The translations under genes were made by a program, and so were the position numbers. Below are positions 2,845 through 23,273 of a stretch of DNA of 23,376 nucleotides, in pieces (within the stretch, counting starts at the first letter, position 1; the number at the start of each line of letters is the position of its first letter). Source of the DNA: a virus. Under the pieces are notes generated by a model. It had not been told where the DNA came from, did not search any database, and worked only from the letters and a program-made list of their open reading frames with translations. The DNA lies in IMG/VR virus record IMGVR_UViG_3300031851_000195, positions 1-23,376 of that record, one strand, 5' to 3'.

Positions 2845-3306
2845 TCAGTTTACGTTAATCGCTCTTTTGATATTGTCTATTACTTTAGAATCAGCTAAAA
2901 AAGAGGTATAGCTTTCTTTGGAGTTAGGTATTTGTGATAAAGTTTCTTCTGAAACTTCTTTGCTAACTGTACTTTTTCCGTATCTCATAAACCAGTTTTC
3001 AGTTTCAGATACTTTGCTTACTTCTTTAAGCATATAGCCAACGTTGTCGTATAAGTCTTGGTCACGCTCTACTTCTACGAAAACCATGTGTTTGCCGTGT
3101 TTGTTTGTTCCTGGAGATATTGCGGCATCAAGTATCCATTCATAACCTGTTTCTAAAAAGTCAACTAGGTCCTGTCCAGCTTCTTTGTTTTCAACAGCAA
3201 AATTAATAACACAGACATCTTCATCAGTTCCCATTTTTGCTTTATAACGATCTACGTCAATATGGTCGCTGATTGTCATTCTAAGGTCTCCGTGATTAAG
3301 TCCCAT
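2845..3306 (-). CDS. Unidentified protein
   Basis: This encodes 153 residues with a mixed alpha/beta, acidic composition and no membrane segment or signal peptide. I do not recognise the family. The first 10 codons overlap the end of the upstream gene by 11 nt (ATGGGACTTAA), so the two are probably translationally coupled, and GTAAC just before the ATG gives no strong ribosome binding site. A ferredoxin-like or other small alpha/beta fold would suit the pattern of a strand (VCVINFAV), a helix (AGQDLVDFLE) and a strand (KHMVFVEV), but this is only a reading of the pattern. The late-type promoter before the pair suggests a virion or late function. Confidence 0.75.
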   Translation of the reverse strand: MGLNHGDLRMTISDHIDVDRYKAKMGTDEDVCVINFAVENKEAGQDLVDFLETGYEWILDAAISPGTNKHGKHMVFVEVERDQDLYDNVGYMLKEVSKVSETENWFMRYGKSTVSKEVSEETLSQIPNSKESYTSFLADSKVIDNIKRAINVN

Positions 3307-3811
3307 CAGTTACTCCTGTGTCTTGTACTGTTTCTTCTTGTGCTGTACTGATATCTTGAACATCAAAACTGTCGCCTTCGATTTCAATACTGCCTCTGTA
3401 AATTTCAGACATTAATGTTTTTGGCATTGTAATTTCTACAACCCAAACTTTGTCTTTTAACATCTTAGGATAGCGTCCGCCCTCTTCCATGTTGTCCATA
3501 TCAGTTTGAGGATCACCTGTCATTTTAGCAGGAGTTTCTAATGTATCTCTTCTAAATGAAACTTTGGCACCATAGTCTAATAATCTTCTAGCACCATCTG
3601 GATCAGGCATCTTCTTTTCAGGCCACATAAATGAAGCTGTTACCCAATGTCTTTCAGTAACAGGACCTAGCACTAACTCGCCTTCCTTCCAATTCTTATA
3701 ACCATAAATGTGTACAGCATCTAATACTCTTTCAAAGTCTACTAGTGTTTCTGTAAAGCTATCTGAATTGTATAGTGATTTAAGTGTCTCTGCTATGTCT
3801 AATGCTTTCAT
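3296..3811 (-). CDS. Unidentified protein, first gene of a late-type unit
   Basis: This is a 171-residue soluble protein with many charged residues and no recognised domain. The ATG at 3811 is preceded by TAGGAT and by a CATAAATA late-type motif about 27 nt upstream. Its 3' end overlaps the next gene by 11 nt. The middle is rich in Trp and Met, and the C-terminus (from about 145) is a polar, probably disordered tail. It starts the minus-strand unit that leads to the endolysin, and it is divergent from phoH. A structural or assembly role is possible from the promoter class alone. Confidence 0.75.
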   Translation of the reverse strand: MKALDIAETLKSLYNSDSFTETLVDFERVLDAVHIYGYKNWKEGELVLGPVTERHWVTASFMWPEKKMPDPDGARRLLDYGAKVSFRRDTLETPAKMTGDPQTDMDNMEEGGRYPKMLKDKVWVVEITMPKTLMSEIYRGSIEIEGDSFDVQDISTAQEETVQDTGVTDGT

Positions 3812-3837
3812 TTGTAATCCTAATTAAATGTATATTG

Positions 3838-3845
3838 TATTTATG
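3838..3845 (-). promoter_or_regulatory. Late-type promoter motif CATAAATA
   Basis: The minus strand reads CATAAATACAATATA, nearly identical over 14 bases to the motif before the fibre gene at 23258. It lies about 27 nt before the ATG at 3811 in the divergent gap with phoH. Confidence 0.55.
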
Positions 3846-3902
3846 TCTTAAAACCGGAATATTGTATATCCTGTATGTTTCTGTGTTACCTTCTTAAATA
3901 CT

Positions 3903-3955
3903 TATAGTGGAAACTGATTATCCGCTGAACAATTGGATAGTTATTTGCCACTATA
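3903..3955. other. Nested inverted repeat upstream of phoH
   Basis: TATAGTGG (3903-3910) and CCACTATA (3948-3955) are perfect 8-bp arms, and inside them TATCC and GGATA form a second pair. The structure fills the gap between the divergent genes, 27 nt before the phoH start. It could be an operator or a leader hairpin; no T-run follows it, so it is not an ordinary terminator. Confidence 0.45.
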
Positions 3956-6581: not shown

Positions 6582-7054
6582 TGAAAAGTTGGATTGAGTG
6601 GTATAAAGATTTTAGAGAAACCCACCCTACAATGAGTTCTCTTATATCCTTTCTAAAAGGATTGTTAATAGGTTTAATTGTTACTTGGTTATTTTGTGCT
6701 TCAATGAGACCAGCACAGGCGGCCAACGAATACTTAAACAGCTACGGTCAACATTGTTCATCAGCTACACTAGAACCTTACATAGAATATAATGTAGACG
6801 AAAGTAGCAATAATGACAATTATAAAAGTGATACCAATAGAGGAACTGTAGGAATTAGATTATCTATACCACTAGGAACTACTTGTACAAAAGAGTATAA
6901 GGAAACTATAATAAAAAACGAGCTACTTAGACAGCAATTAGAAATGTTAAAAATGTGTGCCAGATATAAAGATTTAGATCTTGGACCAGAGTTTGCTGAA
7001 GTAAAAGAAATGTGTGCTGGTGTCAATAAAAAGAGAACTAAAGAAACAAACTAA
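6581..7054 (+). CDS. Secreted or membrane-anchored Cys-containing protein
   Basis: This 157-residue protein has a hydrophobic segment at about residues 19-40 followed by RPAQA-AN, which looks like a signal peptidase site after Ala47. The mature part contains four cysteines (59, 102, 126 and 145 by my count), a beta-rich stretch (GTVGIRLSIPLG, 88-99) and a C-terminal helix (about 105-128). The cysteines suggest disulfides in the periplasm. It overlaps the stop of the coiled-coil gene and ends tail-to-tail with the glycosyltransferase gene, sharing four bases. Together the pair could span the periplasm as spanins do, but this window already has a better spanin pair, so other envelope roles are open. 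Confidence 0.78.
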   Translation: MKSWIEWYKDFRETHPTMSSLISFLKGLLIGLIVTWLFCASMRPAQAANEYLNSYGQHCSSATLEPYIEYNVDESSNNDNYKSDTNRGTVGIRLSIPLGTTCTKEYKETIIKNELLRQQLEMLKMCARYKDLDLGPEFAEVKEMCAGVNKKRTKETN

Positions 7055-8025
7055 ACAGTCTTATATACTTCTTCCCATTTATTAGCTATAGCCTTAGGCG
7101 TGTATGTCCTATCAATAAATGCCTGTGCTTTTTTAATCTTTCTAAGTACTTCTTCTGGATTGTTTAACATTTCTTGATACTTTTTGCCTAAGTCACCAAT
7201 GTATAAAAACTTTTCTAAATCATGATAACTTGGTATACCAGGCGTTGTTAATACCATTCTGCCTTGTTGTAAAGCATCAATTGGTCTATTATTACCTTTA
7301 CAAGATGAATGCCTGTCACTAACAACAGGTAGTAAAACAAAGTCAGCTTCTTTTACTAGTTCGCCTTGTTTATTAAAGTCCCATGGTATTAATGATTTAT
7401 ATTCTTCTAGAATTTGTTTATCAAGAGTATCTCTTTCTTTTTTTGTCGTGTTAAAATAACCAGGAATCTTTTTGACAATTTTATGTAACTTAGGCATATC
7501 ACCTGTTATGTTTGTCATTATTTTTACATTAGTTTTTGAAATTTTGTTTAAATCATTTTTAATAACTATCCATCTTAGTTTAGCATGATTGGAATCAGAT
7601 CCATAATAAAAAGCATTCACATTTCCTTCTTTGGGATCGAACTTTGGTTTGCCTCTAGGTCTTTCTGTAGGGTCAGGTATAACAATTGAGTCAGTTTTAG
7701 TTTCTTGTTTTATTAAATCTTTAAGAGTGTAACAAGTTGTCGTAACGGCATTAGCATTTGGTATAGTAAAATACCAATGTTTAAAAGTTTTAAACTTATC
7801 GTCAGCAACATCTACAATATACTTGATGTTATTTGTTATACAATACTGAGCATCTTCTTTAGAATGCTTTTTACCTAATACTGCTACATCATCAGGTTTT
7901 AAAGATGTAATATCATCTGTGACTCTGCTGTCATTTATTTTACTTGAAGGTACTGTAGCTCTCGCTCTATAAGAATAAGGCGGTGGCCGATCACTTTCTA
8001 GTGTTGGTGTGACAAAAACTAGCAT
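7051..8025 (-). CDS. GT-B fold glycosyltransferase
   Basis: This 324-residue protein looks like a GT-B glycosyltransferase (GT4-like). The C-terminal half carries the telling features: FYYGSDSNHAKLRWI near 140-155 opening the donor domain, and ADFVLLPVVSD with RPIDALQQGRMVLTT near 228-262, the usual nucleotide-sugar binding region. The last 50 residues (LNNPEEVLRKIKKAQAFI) are the customary C-terminal helix. The EX7E motif of classical GT4 enzymes is not clear. It may modify phage DNA, virion proteins or host surface sugars. There is no Shine-Dalgarno sequence before ATG 8025; instead AGTAAATA lies five bases upstream, so a leaderless mRNA is suggested. Confidence 0.75.
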   Translation of the reverse strand: MLVFVTPTLESDRPPPYSYRARATVPSSKINDSRVTDDITSLKPDDVAVLGKKHSKEDAQYCITNNIKYIVDVADDKFKTFKHWYFTIPNANAVTTTCYTLKDLIKQETKTDSIVIPDPTERPRGKPKFDPKEGNVNAFYYGSDSNHAKLRWIVIKNDLNKISKTNVKIMTNITGDMPKLHKIVKKIPGYFNTTKKERDTLDKQILEEYKSLIPWDFNKQGELVKEADFVLLPVVSDRHSSCKGNNRPIDALQQGRMVLTTPGIPSYHDLEKFLYIGDLGKKYQEMLNNPEEVLRKIKKAQAFIDRTYTPKAIANKWEEVYKTV

Positions 8026-8416: not shown

Positions 8417-8749
8417 TTAAAAGTTATGTCCACATTCTGGACAAGTATGTTGTTGAGTGTGTTTCATTGCTTGTGGTGAATCTTTTGTAAACCACAATTC
8501 AAATAACGTTGCTACAGCAGGATCCTTAAACATATAACAATACTCGCCTGTAGTCTTATCAGCCGTAAAGTCGTAGTCTTTATATTTCTTTTGACCACAA
8601 CCTACTAAAAATTCTCTAGCATTAGGCAAAGGTCTTACCTTACTTCCCCATACCATTTGGCCTTGTTGATTTTTAAATGTAAAAGAATAAGTCATATCCT
8701 TTTTACTTTCTGCTTTAACTATTACGTCAGTCCATTTGTTTAGTTTCAT
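8417..8749 (-). CDS. Small protein with C-terminal CxxC zinc-knuckle-like end
   Basis: This is a 110-residue soluble protein I do not recognise. The body is a mixed beta/alpha domain with several aromatic residues. It ends HTCPECGHNF, one CxxC pair with flanking histidines, which could bind zinc as half of a ribbon or within a dimer. The ATG at 8749 overlaps the TAA of the upstream membrane protein gene (TAATG), and a strong GGAGG lies inside that gene's last codons. Its operon mates are small accessory proteins, which suggests an early, host-directed or replication-linked role, but nothing more specific. Confidence 0.75.
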   Translation of the reverse strand: MKLNKWTDVIVKAESKKDMTYSFTFKNQQGQMVWGSKVRPLPNAREFLVGCGQKKYKDYDFTADKTTGEYCYMFKDPAVATLFELWFTKDSPQAMKHTQQHTCPECGHNF

Positions 8750-9066
8750 TATATACCTCCGAAGTAGTATTTTAATAAACCCATAAAGATTAGTGTTACT
8801 AGAACACCGTTGAGCAATATCAATGCTCTATCATGCCATAGGTAACCTACCCAGAACCAACCTAGTGTTCCAAATAAACCAAACCATAAATCAATGTGTG
8901 GTAATGTTCCTGTAGCTCTAGCCGATGTGGCTACTAGAATTAATATAACAGATACCCACTTAACAAACCAAGACAGGTCATGTTTGGGTGTGATCTTTTT
9001 AAAAACTCTTGTTGAATCAAGAGCTTTAATTTTGTCATTAAGTTTTAATCTTTTATTCTCCGCCAT
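8749..9066 (-). CDS. Three-span small membrane protein
   Basis: This encodes 105 residues. A hydrophilic N-terminal 30 residues rich in Lys precedes three hydrophobic segments at about 33-49 (FVKWVSVILILVATSA), 58-75 and 82-100 (LILLNGVLVTLIFMGLL). The arrangement Lys-rich tail, W-S-V strand and a GWFWVGYLWHDR loop is reminiscent of small conserved membrane proteins found in marine phages and bacteria, but I cannot name a family with confidence. The gene overlaps the upstream gene by 14 nt and the downstream gene by one nt, so all three are translated from one message. Confidence 0.75.
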   Translation of the reverse strand: MAENKRLKLNDKIKALDSTRVFKKITPKHDLSWFVKWVSVILILVATSARATGTLPHIDLWFGLFGTLGWFWVGYLWHDRALILLNGVLVTLIFMGLLKYYFGGI

Positions 9067-9805
9067 CTACTGCCTTTACATAATTTAAACTTGTTTCCCA
9101 AGCACCTTGATAAATTTTACTCTTGCCTAAACGTTTAATCTTTCCTTTAATGTTTAAAACATTATCTTTTTCGCCTAAAGCATTTCCGTTCCAAAAGTTA
9201 ACAAGAAACTTGTCATTATAAATTCCTGTGTAAATGTAAGACTCATAGTTCTTAGAATAAAAAACATTTACTAATTTAACAGTACCTTCAATTTTATCTC
9301 CAACTGAACCTACATACTCATCATTACATTGAGAAGTAATAACTTCCTCAAGTTTTTCTTTAGCTAGATCTCTGTAATAAGCTGAAGGTGTACTAACTAA
9401 CAAACCTACTTCTTGAGCAGATACTTCTTCTTTATCTAGCACCTTCCAAATATTTTCTGTGTATTGATCTAACTGTCCGCCCATAGCACTAAACAGTTTA
9501 CCTTGATAGTGTCCGTGAATTTCGTTAACAATTTGCTTGTCGTCTTCTGTAATTGTCATATCTAAATTCTTAACAAATTTAGCATCTTTCTCATCACGAC
9601 AGTTGCCTAGCAAGTGAGCATAAACTATACTTTTGTTAGCAAGTTTAGTTACAATCCATTCTGTTGGTTGCTCACCTTCTTTGTGATATTTTGTTTTAGA
9701 TTCTTTTAGATATTCGCCATTGATACGTTGTGCCATAACAGATGCTTCAAGCACTTCTCTAGCATCATACATTTTTAATGGCTTTTGACTTCTTAGGTAC
9801 ATCAT
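9053..9805 (-). CDS. Unidentified protein with OB-like C-terminal domain
   Basis: This encodes 250 residues from ATG 9805, which forms an ATGA overlap with the preceding stop; AAGGATGG lies upstream. The N-terminal half is helical and charged. The C-terminal part from about residue 165 alternates short beta strands (GDKIEGTVKLVNVFYS, YIYTGIYNDKFLVNFW, LNIKGKIKRL), a pattern like an OB-fold and therefore possible single-stranded nucleic acid or tRNA binding. This is a pattern reading, not a family match. It is expressed with the gene before it from a sigma70-type promoter, which suggests early expression. Confidence 0.75.
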   Translation of the reverse strand: MMYLRSQKPLKMYDAREVLEASVMAQRINGEYLKESKTKYHKEGEQPTEWIVTKLANKSIVYAHLLGNCRDEKDAKFVKNLDMTITEDDKQIVNEIHGHYQGKLFSAMGGQLDQYTENIWKVLDKEEVSAQEVGLLVSTPSAYYRDLAKEKLEEVITSQCNDEYVGSVGDKIEGTVKLVNVFYSKNYESYIYTGIYNDKFLVNFWNGNALGEKDNVLNIKGKIKRLGKSKIYQGAWETSLNYVKAVDGGE

Positions 9806-10191
9806 GCCGCCATCCTTGCTTCTGCTATAGCATGAATACAAATTTTATAATTTTCTTGTGTAGGAGTCATACCGTTTTGTTTACACAATTTCTTTGCTTG
9901 AGGAGTCATAAAACCTTTTTCCTCTAACATACTTAAAGGTGACTTACCAGCTTTGTAGCCTTCAGCAAATTCTTCAACTGTAAAGTTTTTAACTAGGAAG
10001 TTCTTAAAAGCACCTTGAAAGAATACATACTTAAACCTAGCAATAAAAAGTTCTACTGGCATACCGTAACGTGAAGGATGAATACCTTTTCTACCATATA
10101 CTTCTTCATATGTAGGCTGACCTTCATATGTGCCATTATACATTAAATATCCACCGTGGTAACTAAACTTTGTTTTGTCAAACTGTGTCAT
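9802..10191 (-). CDS. Unidentified early protein
   Basis: This 129-residue soluble protein begins at ATG 10191 with AAGGAG about 8 nt upstream and a sigma70-type promoter just before. It is basic and aromatic in its first 60 residues and helical later; no motif I recognise is present. I considered the small clamp-loader subunit gp62 because of size and because the clamp loader lies upstream, but the sequence does not show the conserved N-terminal features I know for gp62. The last bases overlap the start of the OB-like gene. Confidence 0.75.
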   Translation of the reverse strand: MTQFDKTKFSYHGGYLMYNGTYEGQPTYEEVYGRKGIHPSRYGMPVELFIARFKYVFFQGAFKNFLVKNFTVEEFAEGYKAGKSPLSMLEEKGFMTPQAKKLCKQNGMTPTQENYKICIHAIAEARMAA

Positions 10192-10222
10192 TTTTTGCTC
10201 CTTTTTTATTAACTATACATAT

Positions 10223-10250
10223 AGTATAGCATCTTTGGAGGAAAAGTCAA
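10223..10250 (-). promoter_or_regulatory. Sigma70-type promoter for the 10191-7051 unit
   Basis: The minus strand has TTGACT (10250-10245), a 16-nt spacer and TATACT (10228-10223). The expected leader is about 25 nt and contains the ribosome binding site of the gene at 10191. The spacer contains TCCTCC, as does the mazG promoter spacer. Confidence 0.72.
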
Positions 10251-10284
10251 CCAGAAATGTGGTGTTTTTTAGATATTTTAGCGA

Positions 10285-10659
10285 TTATTCAGGTAAATCT
10301 GGTGTAAGTAGCTTCAAAGTGATGTGTTTTTCTACTTCTTGCTCGTATTTTTCAGCTATTTCTTTGATATGTGGGTATTCATTTTCTAATTCTTTATTTC
10401 TATCAAGTTTTGGAGGTATACCTAATGCTTTTTCAATGTTGTTTAGCCTTGCTCCAATATCATCAACTTTTTCATTTACTTCTGTAATTGACGTTGATGA
10501 AGTTGTTAGTGTGTCTGAATCGTAGCTAAATGAAACGTCTAATCCCGACGGGCTTGTTACTGTAGTAGAATAACCCGAACTGTCCTCCCAACTATCTAAT
10601 GTTGCTTTAACATCATCTAAGTCTAGCTCTAATTGATATTGATCGTCTTCAGGATTCAT
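10285..10659 (-). CDS. Unidentified acidic protein with coiled-coil segment
   Basis: This encodes 124 residues from ATG 10659, chosen because it overlaps the preceding stop as ATGA. The N-terminal third is acidic and Ser/Thr-rich (DLDDVKATLDSWEDSSGY); the centre carries a short coiled coil (about 57-80, VNEKVDDIGARLNNIEKAL), and the C-terminus is a charged helix. No domain family is recognised. It is the last gene of the unit that starts with the clamp loader, and the next promoter follows 35 nt after its stop. Confidence 0.72.
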   Translation of the reverse strand: MNPEDDQYQLELDLDDVKATLDSWEDSSGYSTTVTSPSGLDVSFSYDSDTLTTSSTSITEVNEKVDDIGARLNNIEKALGIPPKLDRNKELENEYPHIKEIAEKYEQEVEKHITLKLLTPDLPE

Positions 10660-10916
10660 AATGGGTGCCACTCTGATCCAAACTGTGATGAGACTTCATT
10701 TCGCCTAGCACTGGCTTCGATTGCTTTTTGTTGTAAAGTTTTTTGATCACCACTAGTATCTTTCTCCATTCTTTTTAACAACCTTAAAATTTGATGAGCA
10801 AACTCGGCTCTTCCTTCACAGATTTTTTCAGTTCCATCTGTAACAGGAGCGTCTGTTTCCCATATTTCTATTTCTTCTAAACAGGCTGTTTTAATTGCTT
10901 CAATTTTATCGGTCAT
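10656..10916 (-). CDS. Small helical protein of unknown function
   Basis: This 86-residue, mostly helical, charged protein starts at ATG 10916, overlapping the radical SAM stop as ATGA and using a GGAGGTG ribosome binding site within that gene. It has two cysteines and an Arg-rich helix (about 48-55, LLKRMEK). No family is recognised. Tight coupling to the radical SAM gene makes it worth considering as its partner or substrate, although this is only positional. Confidence 0.72.
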   Translation of the reverse strand: MTDKIEAIKTACLEEIEIWETDAPVTDGTEKICEGRAEFAHQILRLLKRMEKDTSGDQKTLQQKAIEASARRNEVSSQFGSEWHPL

Positions 10917-12211
10917 GTTGTAACACCTCCATCTAATGAAATTCTATCTTCTTTTTTATTTCTAAGTTCTTGTACAATACTACCACAGTTGTCTACACAG
11001 ATTTCCATTCTAGGTTTCTCTTTGTCATCAGTACGATTGTTCCAACTGTCTTGTAGGTCTGTTTGAAAAAACTTATGTCCTAGTACATCTTCTAACGTGT
11101 GATGACTAGTATAATTCCACTTGTCGTCATATTTAGAAACATAGTGATTATGATATGTATTGTTAGGTGTACCATCTGGATTTGCTACGTCTTTACGCCA
11201 TGCTCTAGCAAAGTATGATGTAAAGTGACAACAAACGTGTACACGACCATCCCATTCAATTTGTAACTTGCCTTCGTTACCCCATGAGCACCAAATATTA
11301 CAGTTGTTGGCATAGTCTTCCATACTGTTATCAAATTTTTCTACAACAAGTTTTTTAGCTTTCGCCTCCATAGACTTGTAATGATCTTCAGGTGGCTTAT
11401 GTGATTTGTTTTCAAACTTTTTCTTTTTAACTTTACTAAAGCCTTCATGATCAAAGTCTGTTTCTTTTTCTTTTACACTTACTACACCTGTTTCAATTGC
11501 TTTTTCTCTTAATTGGTTACTAATTCTTTCTGCCCATCTGCTACGTCTTACATCAATTCTAACAAAGCCTAACTCTTTTGCTAATCTTTTTGCTTCTTCT
11601 ATTTGATGTTTGTTATGATCAAATTCAATAATTTGCCATATAGCTTTACCACCGGCTTCCATAAAGTAACGAGCATTTTCTAAAACTTTTTCATATGAAC
11701 AACCTCTACGATACAATTGATGTGTTTTATCATCTGTACCATCTAAAGCAAATATTAATTCTGAATTATTAGGATTGTATCTTTGACTTGCTAAATGTCC
11801 TAAGTCAGTCCAAAACTCTTTGTTTCTCATAGCACCGTTAGTACTAACCCACAAATCAGTTCTACTGTTACGACCGTTCTTTAATCTCTGTGACTTTACA
11901 CTATCACTTACATCAGCAATATAATGAAGTATCTCAATCATGTCTGGATGATTAATAGCATCACCAAACGAACCATTTAGATCTAGTGTTTTAAGTCCTC
12001 CCATTACTGTTGGAGTAAAGATATTTTTAATAGTACTCATAGGCATATTACCAGCACTACCTACTTTAATAGCTGGGTTAGGGTCGCCTTCTTTTAGATT
12101 TAAATGAGGTATGTCGCCTGAGACTCTTCTCAAACATTGTGGACAGAAACTGTTACAGTTTGCCGTAATCTCTATTGTAATTCTTCTTAATAATTTGGGA
12201 TCTAAAAACAT
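10913..12211 (-). CDS. Radical SAM protein with SPASM/twitch-like C-terminus
   Basis: This 432-residue protein is a radical S-adenosylmethionine enzyme. The [4Fe-4S] motif CX3CX2C is C19-NSF-C23-PQ-C26 within ITANCNSFCPQC. Further cysteines sit at 304, 308, 327, 328, 405 and 409 by my count; the block NNCNIWCSW, the following GRVHVCCHF and the terminal CVDNCG suggest an auxiliary cluster like the SPASM or twitch domain. SPASM proteins usually modify peptides; the substrate here is unknown. The GSFGDAINHPD (80-90) and TNGAMRN (124-130) blocks fit the core barrel. It follows the clamp loader by 23 nt with its own late-type motif and no Shine-Dalgarno sequence. Confidence 0.9.
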   Translation of the reverse strand: MFLDPKLLRRITIEITANCNSFCPQCLRRVSGDIPHLNLKEGDPNPAIKVGSAGNMPMSTIKNIFTPTVMGGLKTLDLNGSFGDAINHPDMIEILHYIADVSDSVKSQRLKNGRNSRTDLWVSTNGAMRNKEFWTDLGHLASQRYNPNNSELIFALDGTDDKTHQLYRRGCSYEKVLENARYFMEAGGKAIWQIIEFDHNKHQIEEAKRLAKELGFVRIDVRRSRWAERISNQLREKAIETGVVSVKEKETDFDHEGFSKVKKKKFENKSHKPPEDHYKSMEAKAKKLVVEKFDNSMEDYANNCNIWCSWGNEGKLQIEWDGRVHVCCHFTSYFARAWRKDVANPDGTPNNTYHNHYVSKYDDKWNYTSHHTLEDVLGHKFFQTDLQDSWNNRTDDKEKPRMEICVDNCGSIVQELRNKKEDRISLDGGVTT

Positions 12212-12228
12212 GGTTAAGTACTTTTAAG

Positions 12229-12236
12229 TATTTATT
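12229..12236 (-). promoter_or_regulatory. Late-type promoter motif AATAAATA before the radical SAM gene
   Basis: The minus strand AATAAATA overlaps the TAA stop of the clamp loader gene. By T4 late spacing the +1 base would be near 12223, giving a leader of about 12 nt that has no Shine-Dalgarno sequence. The region is also an inverted repeat (GGTTAA/TTAACC outside, TACTT/AAGTA inside). Confidence 0.5.
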
Positions 12237-13155
12237 AACCTAGTTCAGCTAGTTCTACTAACGTTGCTGACAAGTTAATTTCTGGATCACTAACCATAGC
12301 ATGATTAACTAATCCTTTTCTAATTGTTAGAATTGCTTTGTCTTGACCCTCTACAGAATCACTCCACAATTCTAAGTTATCATACATCCAACGAAACACA
12401 TCTTCCATTTCATCTGGACGTACTTGGCTACACAATAACTGTCTAGCTTCTCTAATCTTACCAGCTTTAATCATGTCTACCATTTGTAGTTTATAATCTG
12501 CTGTAGCATTATCACTTTCTTGAGGATTTTGTAACACACCATCAACTGTATTCATTTGACATAAGTTTAAACATTTTCTCAAATCTGGATATGTTGCTTT
12601 AACGTAACTATCTAAAACATCTAAGTCAGGTGTGACTTCTTCGTCTAACATTACCTTAGCTACTCTAGTTGTAAATTCTGTTATGTCTAGTTTCTCAATA
12701 TGAAATCCTTGACATCTTGAATGTAATGCTGGAATAACTCTGTTAGGATAATTACAAGTTAAAATAAATCTTGCTGTGTTGGCATACATTTCCATAACAC
12801 CACGTAATGCCGCCTGTCCGTTTGGACTAATATAGTCTGCTTCATCTAGTAATACAACCTTAAAGTCACCAAATGGCATTGTTTGTACAAAGCCTGTAAT
12901 CTTATCTCTAATTGTATCTACAGAGTTTTCTCTACTAGCATTAATCTCTAGTATGTCATACTCATCTACTTCTAATACATTTAGTAAAACTTTTGCTAGT
13001 GTTGTTTTGCCTACACCTGGAGCACCACTAAACAATAAATGTGGAATACTCTTTTGATCAATCCATCCTTGAACTTGATTCTTTTGTGCTTCATCTCTAA
13101 ACACATAGTCGTTGATTGTCTTAGGTCTATACTTTTCAGTCCAAAGTTGTTTCAT
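12235..13155 (-). CDS. 44: Sliding-clamp loader ATPase large subunit (T4 gp44 type)
   Basis: This 306-residue AAA+ protein loads the sliding clamp onto primed DNA for the replicative polymerase. The motifs are SGAPGVGKTT (Walker A, 43-52), VVLLDEAD (Walker B, 100-107) and HSRC (145-148, the arginine finger of clamp loaders). The start WTEKYRP is typical of the RFC/gp44 group, as is the length. The ATG at 13155 has GGAG about 11 nt upstream. In T4 gene 62 follows gene 44, but here a radical SAM gene follows, and I see no recognisable gp62 nearby. A sigma70-type promoter at 13298-13327 serves this gene and the short ORF before it. Confidence 0.95.
   Translation of the reverse strand: MKQLWTEKYRPKTINDYVFRDEAQKNQVQGWIDQKSIPHLLFSGAPGVGKTTLAKVLLNVLEVDEYDILEINASRENSVDTIRDKITGFVQTMPFGDFKVVLLDEADYISPNGQAALRGVMEMYANTARFILTCNYPNRVIPALHSRCQGFHIEKLDITEFTTRVAKVMLDEEVTPDLDVLDSYVKATYPDLRKCLNLCQMNTVDGVLQNPQESDNATADYKLQMVDMIKAGKIREARQLLCSQVRPDEMEDVFRWMYDNLELWSDSVEGQDKAILTIRKGLVNHAMVSDPEINLSATLVELAELG

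Positions 13156-22589: not shown

Positions 22590-23273
<684 letters not shown>

Follow-up and report, generated by a model that had tools for sequence, protein, structure and literature searches.

A twitch-like radical SAM enzyme as probable accessory cargo among the replication genes of large T4-like viruses

Introduction

Among the 'auxiliary' genes that are common in aquatic viruses but lack an explanation are those for radical SAM enzymes, which automatic annotation sometimes names heme synthase. The window analysed here, the whole stretch of 23,376 nucleotides, places one such gene directly after a replication gene, and this raises the question of what the enzyme acts on and whether its position says anything about its substrate. 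An earlier note on this DNA had called the enzyme SPASM-like and had paired it with a small overlapping gene as a possible substrate. Our reading, which we hold at a probability of roughly 0.55, is that this is a working twitch-type radical SAM enzyme carried as accessory cargo in gaps between replication genes, with a substrate that is not encoded next door.

The 23-kb window comes from a large T4-like virus known solely from environmental DNA. Its clamp loader, of the T4 gp44 type (12235..13155, minus strand; phrog_168, E 1.1e-78), shares 60% identity with those of the jumbo Pseudomonas phages PA5oct and Paride; elsewhere the window has matches to endolysin, spanin, baseplate and MazG families. 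The clamp loader is the upstream neighbour of the enzyme gene and marks the cargo slot. The replication neighbourhood that had been described is upheld, here in a T4-like virus. Two further stretches of the window, 7051-8025 and 9053-9841, encode conserved proteins of the lineage without known function, with 83% and 88% identity in the related contig L005.

A radical SAM enzyme with a twitch-like C-terminal domain

The enzyme gene (10913..12211, minus strand) opens with ATG and encodes 432 amino acids; its assignment as a radical SAM enzyme with a twitch-like C-terminal domain draws on the ORF, Pfam, PHROGs and an AlphaFold model. The protein is full-length, as had been claimed, and carries the CX3CX2C motif as C19-X3-C23-X2-C26 (residues 19-26; 12134..12157, minus strand), whose cysteines are expected to bind the [4Fe-4S] cluster that cleaves SAM; 75 of the 76 non-redundant relatives retain the motif. 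Pfam Radical_SAM (PF04055) matches at E 1.4e-5 with 25.8 bits, just below the cut-off of 29.5, and PHROGs returns phrog_21308 'radical SAM' at 1.3e-16. None of the curated NCBIfam radical SAM families is matched at its cut-off, the best for the window protein being TIGR04317 (31.8 bits vs 380). The motif and the modelled partial TIM-barrel fold place the protein in the radical SAM superfamily, and cluster binding is predicted. The family also has a signature of its own, EFDHNKHQ (residues 196-203; 11603..11626, minus strand), in which F197 and N200 are conserved in all 76 non-redundant relatives, H199 and H202 in 74 and Q203 in 73. A Lys-rich insert (approximately residues 227-274; 11390..11533, minus strand) is specific to the window clade and missing from most relatives, and is predicted to be disordered, with pLDDT below 50 over most of its length.

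Beyond the barrel, the window enzyme has cysteines at positions 304, 308, 327, 328, 405 and 409. Four of these are found in 76/76 non-redundant relatives and form the invariant pattern C-X18-C-X77-C-X3-C: C308 (11288..11290), C327 (11231..11233), C405 (10997..10999) and C409 (10985..10987), all on the minus strand, and in that order the first to fourth putative ligands of an auxiliary cluster. C328 occurs in 67/76 and C304 in 7/76. The extra C-terminal cysteines noticed earlier are thus real and conserved, but the SPASM label given to them does not hold. The SPASM domain has a seven-Cys motif, with cysteines for two auxiliary clusters. A twitch domain, by definition, holds one (PMC9012708). 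Because four invariant cysteines would provide for one auxiliary cluster rather than SPASM's two, the C-terminal domain fits a twitch-like assignment. In line with this, the model places a beta-hairpin at 315-318/323-325, followed by a helix, alongside the four cysteines; the seven-Cys motif of SPASM is missing, and Pfam SPASM gives 17.2 bits against a cut-off of 21.5, a weak match aligned over 23 of 67 positions. The argument that SPASM enzymes modify small neighbouring peptides, and that a substrate might therefore lie next door, loses its basis once the domain is taken as twitch-like. Moreover, the relatives have 14-56 residues, usually 17-19, before the first cysteine, and in nearly all family members there is no space for an N-terminal RRE or other fused peptide-recognition domain.

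Structure, selection and distribution of the family

The AlphaFold model (mcff54ee905fa; pLDDT 82.7, pTM 0.84) was made from 74 sequences and used in place of an earlier one from 11 sequences, which was poor in the C-terminal domain. It matches 64 solved structures at E <= 0.001, and among the 50 matches listed all are radical SAM enzymes. The best solved fold matches are BlsE (Foldseek E 5.6e-9), then SuiB, anSME and SkfB (E about 1e-8 to 1e-6), with modest TM-scores of 0.38-0.43 of the query, and the profile matches are BlsE (E 3e-7), NifB, MoaA and BtrN. By model and profile, the best matches are auxiliary-cluster radical SAM enzymes. In the comparison with SPASM classes that had been proposed as a check, neither the features of SPASM itself nor the curated cut-offs were reached. 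BtrN, MoaA, BlsE, SuiB, anSME and SkfB have in common with the window enzyme the CX3CX2C motif, the partial TIM barrel and a C-terminal auxiliary-cluster domain. The window enzyme differs from these twitch and SPASM enzymes in its pairwise identity of about 11-18%, in having FGD where the usual motif is GGE, and in its signature E-F-x-H-N-x-H-Q.

In close pairs, purifying selection on the enzyme is very strong, its dN/dS of 0.03-0.06 lying below that of its own clamp loader: between the window and L005 or L003, dN/dS is 0.027 or 0.059 for the enzyme and 0.087 or 0.167 for the clamp loader. In the comparison with L004, which is more distant, the enzyme at 0.112 does not fall below the clamp loader at 0.098. 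Motifs conserved in 75-76 of 76 relatives, together with dN/dS of 0.027-0.112, put the observation of this enzyme beyond chance.

Members of the family are plentiful among large T4-like viruses that have not been cultivated, and very rare among phage isolates. A first scan of IMG/VR gave 14 loci at 24-99% identity. A profile from 11 sequences then found at least 565 related stretches in IMG/VR and 5 loci among 84,980 genomes of bacteria and archaea (GTDB), a contrast between viruses and cells that serves as an indication only, since the two search patterns differed. Among 50,697 phage records, matches came from three Campylobacter phage records alone, at 26% identity over 53%.

Gaps in the replication backbone

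The clamp loader offers an independent anchor for counting what occupies its downstream slot, within a reach of 2.5 kb. Among loci with sufficient sequence, a radical SAM gene lies within that distance downstream in 27/64 clamp-loader loci and upstream in 3/68; the 27 comprise 7 with the window-enzyme family, 18 with N-twitch radical SAM genes and 2 of another type. With loci merged at 95% clamp-loader identity, a radical SAM and/or 2OG-oxygenase gene follows the clamp loader in 23 of 38 groups and precedes it in 0 of 39. These counts were thinned by clamp-loader identity while ignoring phylogeny, and they come from IMG/VR contigs, which are fragments with near-relatives over-sampled. At four loci (L102, L103, L104 and L185), an AspH-like 2OG-oxygenase with weak Pfam support lies between clamp loader and enzyme.

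The small protein c3 served as a second anchor, with a similar outcome. At the 59 loci with both helicase and c3 in view, the slot between them is empty in 25, holds this C-twitch family alone in 5 and an N-twitch radical SAM gene in 17, and contains other genes in the rest. In a third setting, the enzyme gene lies between gp46 and a SegE-like GIY-YIG gene. The gp46-linked contig L071 (7685-8113) and its relatives have this SegE-like endonuclease directly downstream of the radical SAM gene, and a homing endonuclease in such a position could help this kind of cargo spread.

N-twitch and C-twitch types occupy the same genome slots and are mixed in arrays. N_Twi_rSAM (NCBIfam NF033640) is matched by 69/74 family members at E <= 0.01, but its twitch-like cysteines come before the barrel, whereas those of the window family come after it. 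On the tree, the window enzyme falls with array members and apart from the other clamp-linked or helicase-linked ones, and the clamp-linked label requires at least 2 changes on the starred branches. Radical SAM genes thus appear to shift from one slot to another.

We propose that the enzyme gene would be cargo in several gaps of this backbone, namely those between clamp loader and next gene, helicase and c3, primase and helicase, and gp46 and SegE, and that there the C-twitch gene may be exchanged for N-twitch radical SAM and 2OG-oxygenase genes. Given such interchangeability, the gene's position most likely reflects co-expression with the replication genes and not a part in replication itself. 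The 2OG-oxygenases were also considered as obligatory partners and set aside. They lie beside radical SAM genes in 7/68 family loci (odds ratio for adjacent vs non-adjacent 4.2, p 0.006), which makes them alternative or occasional cargo, and Asp_Arg_Hydrox was found in 3 of 105 neighbours.

Radical SAM arrays and viral iron-sulfur genes

Radical SAM genes number 7 in the 93-kb contig L003, 9 in the 82-kb L016 and 14-19 in some others; Paride has 0, and neither an A-type carrier nor a ferredoxin. An A-type Fe-S carrier (PF01521) and a [2Fe-2S] ferredoxin (PF00111) are both present in 5/5 window-clade sister contigs searched, and the A-type gene in 13/16 virus contigs examined. In L272, from a sister virus of L003, the two genes (3167-3911) pass their Pfam cut-offs and adjoin a gp10-like gene. 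In L003, the pair is flanked on one side by a second member of the family and on the other by the counterpart of the gp10-like baseplate gene at the window's edge (22590..23258, minus strand; phrog_677), and the A-type carrier of L005 is about 10.8 kb from the enzyme, matching the expected place just past that edge. On the basis of this synteny, we infer that the window virus carries the ferredoxin/A-type pair just beyond the window, at about 0.1 kb from its end. The sister viruses thus bring Fe-S delivery and a possible electron donor of their own. Radical SAM enzymes are oxygen-sensitive as a class, and so the presence of up to 19 of their genes in one virus implies a sizeable unknown chemistry during infection.

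In two sister contigs, L270 and L271, the arrays contain both twitch types and, set among them, several copies of a protein of 170-330 aa that bears the motif P-x-GAG-x-x-F-x-G-x-LQ and has no Pfam match; it is possibly a P-loop transferase. At the end of a viral radical SAM array, L017 has small genes (10689-11439) that read like those for NfuA and SufE Fe-S assembly. L006, a contig classed as viral and with radical SAM genes near, encodes a tryptophan 2,3-dioxygenase (8687-9247; Pfam E 1.4e-42) followed by genes that read like purC, purF, purD and guaA (9232-13107). A tandem array of at least 9 radical SAM genes was also found in a bacterial MAG (L093; GTDB Rickettsiales MAG MED657), which looks like a binned viral contig and has a c16-type gene 79-82% identical to the viral ones of L270 and L271.

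Comparison with known viral systems

Neither the enzyme class nor the occurrence of radical SAM genes in T4-like viruses is new. The Campylobacter phages CP220 and CPt10 have 11-12 radical SAM genes per genome and an interchangeable five-gene block (PMC2853527). They are T4-like, and their many radical SAM genes and swappable block resemble the arrays described here; however, theirs form a single array by the baseplate genes, together with amidinotransferase and sugar-transferase genes, and do not lie between replication genes. Campylobacter phages are the only named phages with detectable relatives of the window protein. A passage of PMC5332604 describes a marine 183-kb T4-like genome with 12 radical SAM genes and an A-type carrier, Fe-S genes that agree with the Fe-S support seen in the window clade, and a passage of PMC7029224 describes radical SAM cassettes of pelagimyophages. 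These passages contain no account of replication slots, of the twitch family or of neighbour turnover, and a literature search on phage radical SAM enzymes with clamp loader and oxygenase found none. New, as far as our searches show, are the definition of a C-twitch viral family, the radical SAM/2OG cargo slots in replication gaps, the finding that the small gene is not a partner, and the association with a viral ferredoxin and A-type carrier in the same clade.

Proposed activity and substrate

The enzyme is most likely active and C-H-modifying, and most likely acts on a small molecule, a glycan or a protein made elsewhere. If it works as other members of the superfamily do, the CX3CX2C cluster would cleave SAM reductively to give a 5'-deoxyadenosyl radical, which would abstract hydrogen from an unreactive C-H bond in the substrate, and the single auxiliary [4Fe-4S] cluster (C308, C327, C405, C409) would bind the substrate or accept an electron. 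The lineage's own ferredoxin and A-type carrier plausibly reduce and load such enzymes.

For the substrate itself, we lean, at slightly under even odds, towards a small molecule or a glycan or nucleotide-sugar precursor, because small-molecule enzymes top the profile matches, no recognition domain or precursor gene is present, and the neighbours in the arrays are tailoring-like. It is a lean only: the similarity to small-molecule enzymes is weak, the neighbours are mixed, and by fold the peptide- or protein-acting enzymes SuiB, anSME and SkfB match just as well. A protein or peptide encoded elsewhere is a serious candidate that we would nonetheless bet against, and a nucleic acid an improbable one.

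The strongest rival takes up the second of these substrates. The target might be a protein or peptide of virus or host whose gene lies elsewhere, and the enzyme might modify it as anaerobic sulfatase maturases or stand-alone RiPP maturases do, possibly jointly with viral 2OG (aspartyl/asparaginyl hydroxylase-like) oxygenases. The Foldseek matches to anSME, SuiB and SkfB are consistent with such an activity, as are the Asp/Arg-hydroxylase-like or other 2OG oxygenases that adjoin radical SAM genes at several loci. Yet no conserved peptide gene lies near, no recognition domain is fused, and the best sequence-profile matches are small-molecule enzymes, and we regard this reading as tentative and on the unlikely side. 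More doubtful is a wider system, in which C-twitch and N-twitch enzymes, 2OG-oxygenases and the ferredoxin/Fe-S carrier would together alter a viral target made during replication; the genome, a replisome protein or a virion glycan would be candidates, for example as a means to evade host defences.

Slightly less probable again is a step in viral DNA or nucleotide-pool hypermodification, which would explain the replication neighbourhood. Phage deazaguanine pathways do include radical SAM steps (QueE), the best profile match, BlsE, acts on a nucleoside, and the gene is located in the replication module in three settings. However, these slots are often empty or hold unrelated genes, other family members sit in multi-enzyme arrays away from replication genes, and no other hypermodification gene was recognised within the window. 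We give hardly any weight to an AhbD-like heme synthase, the name that virome studies sometimes assign automatically to such genes: 27/74 members match TIGR04545 (AhbD) below its cut-off, and 'ahbD' counts among the globally conserved viral genes of one survey (PMC7288430) and appears 261 times in Baltic viruses in another (PMC9301287), but fewer members match TIGR04545 than W_rSAM_matur or N_Twi_rSAM, TIGR04545 is not among the window protein's matches, and the family conserves cysteines for one auxiliary cluster, whereas AhbD, in a passage of PMC10452713, carries two. We suggest that the viral 'ahbD' annotations of virome surveys may partly reflect this C-twitch family.

The accessory-cargo reading leaves concrete proteins to purify, and a choice of substrates can be guided by comparing the occupants of the slots. 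The usual guess, a substrate next door, is wrong for the window enzyme, and the evidence for this lies in its small neighbours.

Small neighbours of the enzyme

As had been described, the enzyme gene sits between the clamp loader and an 86-aa ORF (10656..10916, minus strand) that overlaps it by the four bases ATGA. It is very improbable that the enzyme is a peptide maturase acting on this protein, an idea that the overlap in the window favours: the 86-aa gene is missing beside the enzyme in L003, L004/L016, L005, L102 and L104, its two relatives found in all lie 21 kb from the enzyme in the L016 virus (G003; 48% identity) or, with no enzyme in view, beside a gp32 gene and a 2OG-oxygenase (L268; 49-55%), and an equal 4-base overlap is formed in relatives with c25 (L003, L004, L102, L104) or with an unrelated 240-aa ORF (L005). 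The 86-aa gene therefore does not always accompany the enzyme; in each close relative, other genes take its place. Of the two refuting conditions set in the earlier note, a neighbour gene not conserved beside the enzyme was found, whereas the C-terminal cysteines proved conserved. Both the coupled partner of the earlier note and the 86-aa protein as a substrate were rejected. The 240-aa ORF (L005, 7296-8018) has no Pfam match, and the L005 enzyme beside it is 99% identical to that of the window. There is also no space for a precursor peptide gene in the window clade, where the gaps on either side of the enzyme measure -4 to 24 bases, and a conserved small peptide gene, as expected beside a RiPP maturase, was not found across the relatives.

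Other neighbours fared no better as partners. Scans of 105 neighbours with Pfam and PHROGs gave no single conserved neighbour family. The small protein c3, 82-104 aa long and found after the enzyme at many of the helicase-linked loci, comes directly after the helicase in 25/59 loci, and also occurs without the enzyme in Sinorhizobium phage Phosso, where the gene order is primase-helicase-96 aa-c3. The nearest neighbour kept in the window clade is c25, a 128-aa protein (10285..10671, minus strand) present with the enzyme in every window-clade contig that reaches it. The equivalence to gene 62 implied earlier is not supported, as neither the 86-aa protein nor c25 matched any clamp-loader family, and c25 was discarded as gp62. 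It was likewise discarded as an obligate partner, since L186, a stretch of 4.8 kb in which no enzyme is seen, encodes a relative of the C-terminal part of c25. The two proteins (window 10285-10671 and L186 435-812) share the C-terminal motif IEKALGIP...EEKHP..K..YxxYxxx..K..T, which suggests a family wider than the window clade.
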